NCBI RefSeq assembly: GCF_025917315.1
Contig: NZ_CP080627.1
Coordinates: 1,922,001-1,986,000 of the forward strand
DNA length: 64,000 bases
Source of the DNA: Halomonas qaidamensis
Lineage (GTDB): Bacteria; Pseudomonadota; Gammaproteobacteria; Pseudomonadales; Halomonadaceae
Direction of reading: 5' to 3'
Shown here piece by piece: positions 54 through 36,846 of this stretch (position 1 is the stretch's first letter; each line of letters starts with the position of its first letter). A program made the translations under genes and the position numbers. Under the pieces are notes generated by a model. It saw nothing but the letters and a program-made list of their open reading frames with translations. It searched no databases and was not told the DNA's origin.

Positions 54-287
54 ATGCCTATACCGGCAAACGATTCACCGCTTGAGGTTGCTTGCCCTCA
101 ATGCGGCAAAAAAATCATCTGGGGGCCAGAAAGCACCTATCGCCCTTTTTGTAGCAAGCGCTGCCAACTGCTTGATTTAGGTGCTTGGGCGGAAGAGTCG
201 CATCGCATTGCAGGTGAATCTGCCATGGACGAAGCAGACTTGGATACTCTGCTTGCTCAAGCGGATAGAGATGCGCCACTTTCTTAA
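54..287 (+). CDS. yacG: DNA gyrase inhibitor YacG (zinc-binding)
   Basis: This is a 77-residue protein, near the usual size for YacG. It has a four-cysteine zinc site: C14-x2-C17 and C33-x3-C37, followed by the family signature around residues 38-50 ([10 protein letters not shown]). In E. coli YacG binds GyrB and inhibits gyrase; the in vivo role is less clear. The start is supported by a ribosome-binding site (AGGAGT) 7 bases upstream. The C-terminal third is acidic, as in the family. The gene probably belongs to the operon ending just upstream (coaE/pil genes in relatives). Identification is confident; a role in this organism is inferred. Confidence 0.93.
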
Positions 288-290
288 AGA

Positions 291-369
291 ATGACTTAGG
301 TATTAAGTATCATCTTAGCGCTTAACTAACGTCCTAGGGCTTAAGGAACGTCTTAGGTAACAGCATAAG
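291..369. repeat. Degenerate ~20-bp tandem repeats between yacG and tus
   Basis: Four imperfect units of 19-21 bases lie head to tail (291-311, 312-331, 332-350, 351-369). They share a core like CTTAGG/CTTAGC followed by a TTAA or TAAC element. They sit just upstream of the Ter-like site and the tus gene. The function is unknown; they could be a binding array or a remnant of slippage. Confidence 0.5.
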
Positions 370-409: not shown

Positions 410-432
410 AGAAAGAGTGTTGCTGATAAAGT
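410..432 (+). promoter_or_regulatory. Ter-like site (candidate Tus-binding site) upstream of tus
   Basis: Bases 414-431 read AGAGTGTTGCTGATAAAG. Over 23 bases (410-432) this matches the E. coli TerB sequence, as I recall it, at 15 positions. The matches include the GTGTTG/TGTTG block, with the G pairing with the flipped cytosine, and the TAAAGT end. It lies 42 bases before the tus start codon, in the same orientation as TerB relative to E. coli tus, where the site overlaps the tus promoter and mediates autoregulation. A second, weaker copy with a 14-base period follows (431-445, GTGGTGCTGATAGAG). The similarity is seen directly; binding is inferred. Confidence 0.55.
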
Positions 433-474
433 GGTGCTGATAGAGTGTCACTTTACTCGCATTAAGGCCCGCCC

Positions 475-1347
475 ATGACTGATGCTCCGCTGTCTTTGTA
501 TCACCTACTCCATGAGCTTGATACACACTTTGACCAACTGGTGGCCACTATTGAGCAGGCCGCAGCGCTGTATGAAGCTCACCAACCGCCTACCTGGCGA
601 TTTCAGCATGCCTCTAGCAACTCTTTTTGGCTGCGTGAAGCACTGCTAGATATGTGGCATCAGCAAGGTCAAGATGGACGCGAAACACGTAATTATATAG
701 CTGTTATTGCCGCTGATACTGCATTAATTGATGCGTGTCATCATATTAACCATGCAAAAGCGCGCATCAGCGATCTGCTTGCTCATATTAAACAAGCTCA
801 CCCAAATGCATTGAATGATGCCAAATCGCGCCTGCCCCATCGCCACCCACATATTAATGATGTACTGCGTAAAAGCGGTTTTGCAAGGCTCCATCTAAAG
901 CAGTGCTGGCGGCAACTCCCTATTGCCCCTGCGCCTGTGTCCAGAGTTAGGCTGGCGTGGTATAGCAGCGGTCGCTCAATTAAAAGAATAAGCGTTCAGG
1001 AAGCAGAACAAAAGTTATTGCAACTTGATAGCGACGCACCCCATATTCGTATACAGCTACGCAAGCTCGCCAATCTTCCAAGTGCAGAAATATTGGCACA
1101 GGTACAACCTCAGGCACCATTAATGCGCGCTAATCTGTTTTTTGTGGAGCCCCTGGATGATGGACACACGCGACGAGCGCTTAATATTGCCATGCCGTTG
1201 ATAGTGCCTGCCAATGAAGGGCGGTTGCCGCACCTCAAAGCACCTGCCGAAACGCCTCCAACAACGCGAACTAGAGCCAAGCGGCGTGACGAAAAATTAG
1301 AAGAAAACGTTTACTTACCAAGTCTAAGAGTCTTTCGCTATCGCTAG
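475..1347 (+). CDS. tus: DNA replication terminus site-binding protein, Tus family
   Basis: This 290-residue protein (E. coli Tus is 309) is divergent but recognisable. Tus binds Ter DNA as a monomer and blocks the DnaB helicase from one side. Aligned segments include residues 89-107 (HHINHAKARISDLLAHIK, like SHIQHINKLKTTFEHI), the HRH at 122-124 (matching H144-R-H of the E. coli fork-blocking face), 158-172 (a VRLAW...SIKRI strand region, like LRFGW...IIKNL), and the C-terminal strand LPSLRVFRYR (like IPRLHLYVAD). Many Arg, Lys and His residues suit DNA binding. The ATG follows AAGG about 7 bases upstream. It stands alone between yacG and a convergent small gene and is preceded by a Ter-like site, suggesting autoregulation. 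The family call is from recalled E. coli sequence. Confidence 0.82.
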   Translation: MTDAPLSLYHLLHELDTHFDQLVATIEQAAALYEAHQPPTWRFQHASSNSFWLREALLDMWHQQGQDGRETRNYIAVIAADTALIDACHHINHAKARISDLLAHIKQAHPNALNDAKSRLPHRHPHINDVLRKSGFARLHLKQCWRQLPIAPAPVSRVRLAWYSSGRSIKRISVQEAEQKLLQLDSDAPHIRIQLRKLANLPSAEILAQVQPQAPLMRANLFFVEPLDDGHTRRALNIAMPLIVPANEGRLPHLKAPAETPPTTRTRAKRRDEKLEENVYLPSLRVFRYR

Positions 1348-35625: not shown

Positions 35626-36846
35626 TTAGCTCTGTTGACGACCTTTACCGGCAGCAATCCGCAGACGCAATGCGTTCAGCTTGATAAAGCCTTCTGCGTC
35701 TTTTTGATCGTAGGCACCTGCATCATCTTCAAACGTTGCAATCGACTCATCAAACAACGACTGTTCAGACTTGCGTCCCACAACCGTTGCATTGCCTTTA
35801 TAGAGCTTCATGCGCACAACGCCCGCGACGTTTTTCTGTGTTTCATCGATCGCCGCTTGCAGCATACGACGCTCGGGGCTCCACCAATAACCGTTATAGA
35901 TCACTTCTGCATACTTGGGCATTAGCTGATCTTTCAGGTGCGCTTCTTCACGGTCAAGGGTCAGCGACTCAATGGCGCGGTGAGCGCGAAGCATTATTGT
36001 GCCACCAGGCGTTTCGTAACAACCACGTGACTTCATACCGACATAGCGGTTTTCAACGATATCTAGACGGCCAATACCGTTATCGCCACCCAGCTTGTTG
36101 AGCTTTTCCAGCACTTCATGAGGCTTGAGCGCTTCGCCGTCGATGGCCACAATATCGCCATTCTCAAACGTCAGCTCTACGTAAGTCGGCTGCTCAGGTG
36201 CGGCTTCAGGAGAAACGCTCCAACGCCACATATCTTCTTCTGCTTCGGCCCATGGATCTTCCAAAATGCCGCCTTCATAAGAAATATGCAGCAGGTTGGC
36301 ATCCATAGAGTACGGAGATTTTTTCTTTTTATTAGAAAAATCAACAGGAATTTTGTGCTCTTCACAGTAGGCCATCAACTTCTCACGAGAAGTCAAATCC
36401 CACAAACGCCAAGGAGCAATAACCTTTACGCCAGGTTTGAGCGCGTAGCCACCCAATTCAAAACGAACCTGATCATTACCTTTGCCCGTTGCACCGTGAG
36501 AAATGGCATCAGCGCCCGTCTCATTAGCAATTTCAATCAAGCGCTTGGCAATTAAAGGGCGCGCAATAGACGTACCTAGTAAGTACTCGCCTTCATAAAT
36601 GGTGTTCGCCCGAAACATGGGGAAAACATAGTCACGAACAAACTCTTCGCGAAGGTCTTCAATATAGATCTCTTTAACACCCAGTGCTTGAGCCTTGGCG
36701 CGTGCGGGCTCGACTTCTTCACCTTGACCGATGTCGGCTGTAAAGGTCACTACCTCGCAGTTGTAGGTCTCTTGCAACCACTTAACGATAACGGATGTGT
36801 CCAGGCCGCCTGAATACGCCAGCACAACCTTTTTGACATCGGACAT
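35626..36846 (-). CDS. argG: Argininosuccinate synthase
   Basis: 406 residues, the standard length. The ATP-pyrophosphatase loop [10 protein letters not shown] is at about 10-19, followed by [13 protein letters not shown] (about 116-128). It joins citrulline and aspartate in arginine synthesis. The chosen ATG (36846) has AAGGAG upstream; an in-frame extension of 37 residues is rejected. Codons and sequence are unremarkable. It is monocistronic by its terminator, and transcribed away from rnt. Confidence 0.97.

Follow-up and report, generated by a model that had tools for sequence, protein, structure and literature searches.

The replication fork trap of Escherichia coli is composed of the Tus protein (Pfam family PF05472) and of the sites TerA to TerJ. 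Fork traps are considered rare and their use is debated. In a survey based on PF05472, resident tus was recorded, as stated there, in three clades only (PMC6549158), and the three resident clades are restated by a later review (PMC10331603). In the type I traps of Enterobacterales other than Enterobacteriaceae, as described for Edwardsiella tarda and Dickeya, the tus-vicinal Ter is an innermost one and is 74-83% identical to TerB, and the Ter pair of E. tarda is given as 56 kb apart (PMC8707476). In Pseudoalteromonas, Ter is described as having escaped a search based on the E. coli consensus (PMC7858055). Here we describe a stretch of 64,000 nucleotides from Halomonas qaidamensis (NZ_CP080627.1, C1:1922001-1986000 of a 3.77-Mb chromosome; hereafter the window), which carries, at 475..1347, a divergent tus homologue, as judged from the predicted structure of its product. 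The first-pass annotation had recognized a Tus-family gene here and had proposed as its Ter a TerB-like stretch directly upstream, at 410-432. That stretch is not likely to be a Ter, while the Tus-Ter trap outside Enterobacterales that was also proposed is well supported by other sites, namely copies of the word AGATAACGGTATA on both sides of dif.

The Halomonas system shares with E. coli the predicted fold of the protein and the presence of repeated, non-palindromic sites that flank dif with opposite polarity on its two sides. The layout is also the same, since in E. coli MG1655 dif is on the minus strand with TerB and tus on the plus strand about 93 kb to the right, the corresponding distance in Halomonas being 101 kb. 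In this genus, however, tus is located behind yacG without a promoter site, and about 58 kb separates the innermost sites. Halomonas is like the type I traps, as these are described, in having few sites and a narrow trap around dif (PMC8707476), but is unlike them in the position of tus, which is outside the inner sites, and in its site sequence, which does not resemble TerB. With the Pseudoalteromonas chromid, according to the published accounts, it has in common the position outside Enterobacterales and a Ter that is not found with the E. coli consensus, but tus of Pseudoalteromonas is located by the origin of the second replicon, whereas that of Halomonas is close to dif on the main chromosome (PMC6549158, PMC7858055).

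A divergent homologue of tus

The gene at 475..1347 (plus strand) encodes a protein of 290 amino acids, which is 100% identical to one encoded in the Halomonas alkaliantarctica genome. As a single query the protein hit no Pfam or NCBIfam family and gave PDB rows at chance level only, and PDB searches with profile A1 and with the relatives L142 and L138 likewise missed Tus, so that the likeness to Tus was revealed only by fold comparison. The predicted structure has the Tus fold, with 15-18% identity to E. coli Tus in the structural alignment; one region of the model, residues 132-141, has a predicted local distance difference test score (pLDDT) below 50. Homology to bona fide members of PF05472 was found via L142, a relative 19% identical to the window protein that scores 25.6 bits against the family model, above its cut-off of 22 bits, and that was matched by profile A2, built without L142, with an hhalign probability of 98.4% (E-value 9e-15); profile A1 includes L142. 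The closer relative L138 (41% identical) reaches 20 bits. The gene is thus, on the predicted model, a divergent relative of tus, in agreement with the first-pass annotation as far as the fold is concerned, PF05472 itself being unmatched.

A second tus copy, 41% identical, is present in one member of the genus (G007:C3:120191-121054). In two other genomes tus seems to be interrupted or to contain stops (G012:C1:2495539-2498735 and G096:C1:3012232-3013068), with polar sites still present; these are possible natural losses of Tus.

Polar sites around dif

The dif site is located at C1:1821080 on the minus strand, coincident with the sign change of GC skew, tus being on the plus strand to the right of dif. 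A search for words that switch strand at dif was performed on 168-200 kb around dif in seven genomes. The word AGATAACGGTATA was found there as scattered single copies, 24 pointing outward and none inward, against 0.035 matches on average for 200 permutations of the word. The candidate Ter is non-palindromic and has the profile aAGATAACGGTATAaawtt. Polar sites on both arms of the terminus, which the first-pass annotation had named as the mark of a fork trap, were thus found, with this word and around a dif at the skew switch. Several other strand-switching words scored equally high or higher; the four of these that were checked were set aside, as three of them pile up in single 2-kb bins (G000, G011) and the fourth reaches three copies per bin.

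On the own chromosome, exact copies of AGATAACGGTATA are present at C1:1712852 (minus), 1796138 (minus), 1853915, 1856854, and 2146548 (all plus), and a first-base variant (CGATAACGGTATA) at 2116983 (plus); all of these, including the variant, point outward from dif. Among these sites, one is located in a DsrC-family gene, one in a PLD-domain gene, one in the intergenic region beside fumarase, one at a place with no open reading frame of 100 amino acids or more, and one in another open reading frame. All seven genomes have two copies on the right side, at +30 to +33 kb and at +33 to +36 kb from dif, one of the two having a changed first base in G027 and G001. The left-side copy is at about -25 kb in five genomes, at -32 kb in G006, and at -52 kb in G009, and some of the seven carry additional copies further out. 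The three single-mismatch copies all differ at the first base only. The 12-mer is kept in 7 of 7 genomes at +30 to +33 kb, between variable flanks; the rows of the codon comparison were chosen by the exact core, and the row labelled cls for G036 is in fact the intergenic site, so that these rows by themselves do not reveal whether third codon positions are conserved.

The window itself contains no copy of AGATAACGGTATA, the best match being one with two mismatches at 36073, of which a similar copy with similar flanks is present in G011. The own 45.9-kb plasmid carries CGATAACGGTATA at G000:C2:21586-21597, about 0.9 kb past the gene for a ParA/MinD-type ATPase; plasmid R1 is described as carrying a known fork trap (PMC10331603). 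A literature search, with most subscription journals outside its coverage, found no treatment of a Halomonas Ter, and the 12-mer and three other strings were not found in the literature text searched.

Distribution in the genus and the order

The exact 13-mer AGATAACGGTATA is present in 60 of 61 genomes of the genus, and the reversed pattern, used as control, in none. Among the matches listed, 155 sites belong to the genus; 116 are on the dif contig (32 genomes), and all 116 point outward. In 11 further genomes, including other genera and families, 53 of 53 sites are outward among the matches listed, with 8 of the 61 listed sites off the dif contig and outside the polarity count. The combined count is 169 of 169 among the matches listed, which represents fewer than 169 independent events because of the kinship between species. 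Of 20 genomes, eight that gave no dif match, and also G138, in which dif and the listed sites are on different contigs, were excluded from the polarity count; the dif match of G162 has three mismatches. In four of the excluded genomes (G108, G170, G041, and G197), a single strand switch is seen among the listed sites on one contig.

Among 244 sampled genomes of the order, the gene was identified in 63 and the word AGATAACGGTATA in 52. Two or more copies of the word are present in 33 of the 63 genomes with tus but in 1 of the 181 without, and at least one copy in 39 of 63 versus 13 of 181. In six families the word accompanies tus in all 34 tus-positive genomes. Within family f37, both tus-positive genomes have at least two copies, and one of the seven genomes lacking a tus match carries a single copy.

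A class-wide scan identified a relative in 19 of 274 genomes, and a scan of viral contigs gave no relative. Plasmid-borne tus relatives, 28-47% identical, are carried by Halomonas KO116 (L157), I5-271120 (L158), and Vibrio vulnificus FORC_036 (L159); two plasmid homologues are already annotated under the Tus name in their records, and at the V. vulnificus locus a copy of the word with one mismatch is located 3.2 kb past the tus start. In five genomes of one genus of family f16 (L248-L251 and L140), GATAACGRYTTATTAAG precedes the tus match by 49-200 bp, in one of them with a mismatch, and is perhaps, as far as its position suggests, a further Ter sequence. In G286, neither a copy of a shorter form of GATAACGRYTTATTAAG within 100 kb of dif nor a polar set near dif was found. 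A blind word search in two f8 genomes gave ambiguous words only.

Promoter copies in sister genera and the proposed mechanism

In at least nine genomes of the order, the tus match is preceded at 0-31 bp by the word on the same strand, and in two further genomes (two of eight whose upstream stretch was read, from four of these families) the word is just upstream of the tus start. In seven of 80 named loci, the 12-mer, with a varying first neighbour, is found upstream of tus with its end 16-44 bp from the match; these include Salinicola and Modicisalibacter, in which the upstream gene is not yacG. The promoter-sited word is absent from the window and from 49 named loci in which tus follows a recognized yacG. 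These promoter copies tie the word to tus. They also take the same place and strand relative to tus as TerB of E. coli, which suggests by analogy a polarity in which the AGAT end of the site would face dif, like the blocking end of TerB. Their position implies autoregulation of tus in the sister genera. The autoregulation proposed by the first-pass annotation is thus suggested for these genera, no promoter site being present in this species.

Taken together, it is very probable that a divergent Tus with AGATAACGGTATA as its Ter forms a fork trap of outward sites around dif, the promoter copy being lost in this genus; what is read from sequence is where the sites lie and how they are oriented, that they occur together with tus, and that some of them are placed in its promoter. 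The Tus protein from 475-1347 would most likely bind AGATAACGGTATA, and at the outward sites it would admit forks from the origin into the terminus and halt those running out past dif. The promoter copies in sister genera would permit self-repression of the kind found at E. coli TerB. Such a copy is missing in this genus, whose tus stands behind yacG, and any self-control in Vreelandella would have to differ.

Alternatively, Tus could bind these sites chiefly as a repressor or as a plasmid-maintenance factor, without truly arresting forks at the terminus of the chromosome. The promoter sites of the sister genera and the known plasmid-borne homologues are in line with such a role, and in E. coli only six Ter sites are reported to be significantly bound by Tus (PMC8707476). 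The outward polarity on both arms, however, would serve no obvious purpose if Tus were a repressor, and this alternative is considered unlikely. It is less likely still that the polar word serves another terminus or segregation protein with which Tus just co-occurs. The binding of Tus to the word is deduced from sequence and the word is centred on the terminus, with 100 of the 116 listed dif-contig sites within 100 kb of dif; but it is also located directly upstream of tus on the same strand in several genera, and it tracks tus within family f37. In addition, KOPS, matS, and the SlmA sites are unlike AGATAACGGTATA.

The yacG-tus gap and the TerB-like stretch

The gene upstream of tus is yacG (54..287, plus strand; 77 amino acids, Pfam YacG 82.7 bits). 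Where a yacG end was recognized (49 of 80 named loci), the gap to tus is 0-52 bp in 47, the two exceptions being this species (about 187 bp; 188 bp by this count) and V. andesensis (339 bp); at least some of the remaining 31 loci have another YacG C-terminus. Because the gaps are short in relatives, tus is probably co-transcribed with yacG in most of the genus (Vreelandella).

The TerB-like stretch AGAAAGAGTGTTGCTGATAAAGT is located at 410..432 on the plus strand, in this gap. The TerB sequence, which was read from MG1655, is on the sense strand of tus, 10 bp before its ATG. The comparison made in the first-pass annotation holds in its count, with 15 of 23 positions identical to TerB and both the TGTTG and TAAAGT blocks present, and also in the placement, on the correct strand and 42 bp before tus. 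The stretch is, however, not conserved, with the TGTTG block absent at the corresponding place in V. andesensis, and candidate Ter sites in the tus promoter are seen in the sister genera, not in this species. Four consecutive mismatches fall in the Ter core (TerB positions 14-17), and in mononucleotide shuffles of the 187-bp gap, the best plus-strand TerB match was 15 or more in 51 of 2000. The weaker second copy noticed at a 14-base period belongs to a repeat: most of the stretch belongs to a degenerate direct repeat of three 14-nt copies at 411..452 on the plus strand (411-424, 425-438, and 439-452), so that 410-432 is part of a local tandem array.

A search of 404 kb around the terminus of the own chromosome, and of 200 kb from the terminus region of each of six further genomes, gave no E. 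coli-type Ter (AGNATGTTGTAACTAAA) with two or fewer mismatches, and no match to AGATAACGGTATA within five mismatches was detected at 405-450 of the window. That 410-432 serves this Tus as a functional Ter, in the manner of TerB in E. coli, is therefore most improbable despite the match and its placement, since the core is mismatched, the stretch lies in a tandem repeat and is missing in close relatives, and the distribution expected of Ter around the terminus is shown by AGATAACGGTATA; the resemblance to TerB is judged to be a coincidence.

Two other elements are present in the gap. A degenerate direct repeat of three copies with 19-nt spacing is located at 290..356 (plus strand). AGGTAACAGCATA at 355..367 (plus strand), 107 bp before tus, matches the candidate Ter at 10 of 13 positions and is possibly either a decayed promoter Ter or a chance match.

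Discussion

Several observations weigh against a fork trap formed by this Tus and AGATAACGGTATA. With respect to the protein, neither the window product nor the own genome gives a match to PF05472 at the model cut-off, and the direct comparison of profile A1 with E. coli Tus is weak (hhalign probability 31%, E-value 5e-4). With respect to the sites, the Halomonas core differs from the E. coli consensus, several of the own sites lie inside coding sequence, and the sites are not independent, a set of 65 distinct sites, which was picked by exact core and thus says nothing on core degeneracy, collapsing to 52 by likeness over 48 bp. With respect to the distribution, the 29 tus-positive genomes of other families (f8, f16, f29, and others) include five with one copy of the word and none with two, about the level of chance; a look for Ter-like sites of their own near dif in those families gave nothing clear; and G171 has two copies of the word without a tus match.

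On balance, we consider it likely that a resident chromosomal Tus-Ter trap with its own Ter is present across Halomonadaceae and five or more further families of the order, and has been missed so far. It would have been overlooked because these proteins go undetected by PF05472. If this is true, tus is resident in more lineages than Enterobacterales, Aeromonadales, and the Pseudoalteromonas chromid, its history involves more than recent domestication from plasmids, and the Ter sequence has been rewritten within the Tus family. A second, divergent trap in a separate order, with its sites in nearly all genomes of the genus, would show lasting selection for the trap, and would supply both a second Tus-Ter code for comparison and a culturable host in which the purpose of the trap could be asked.
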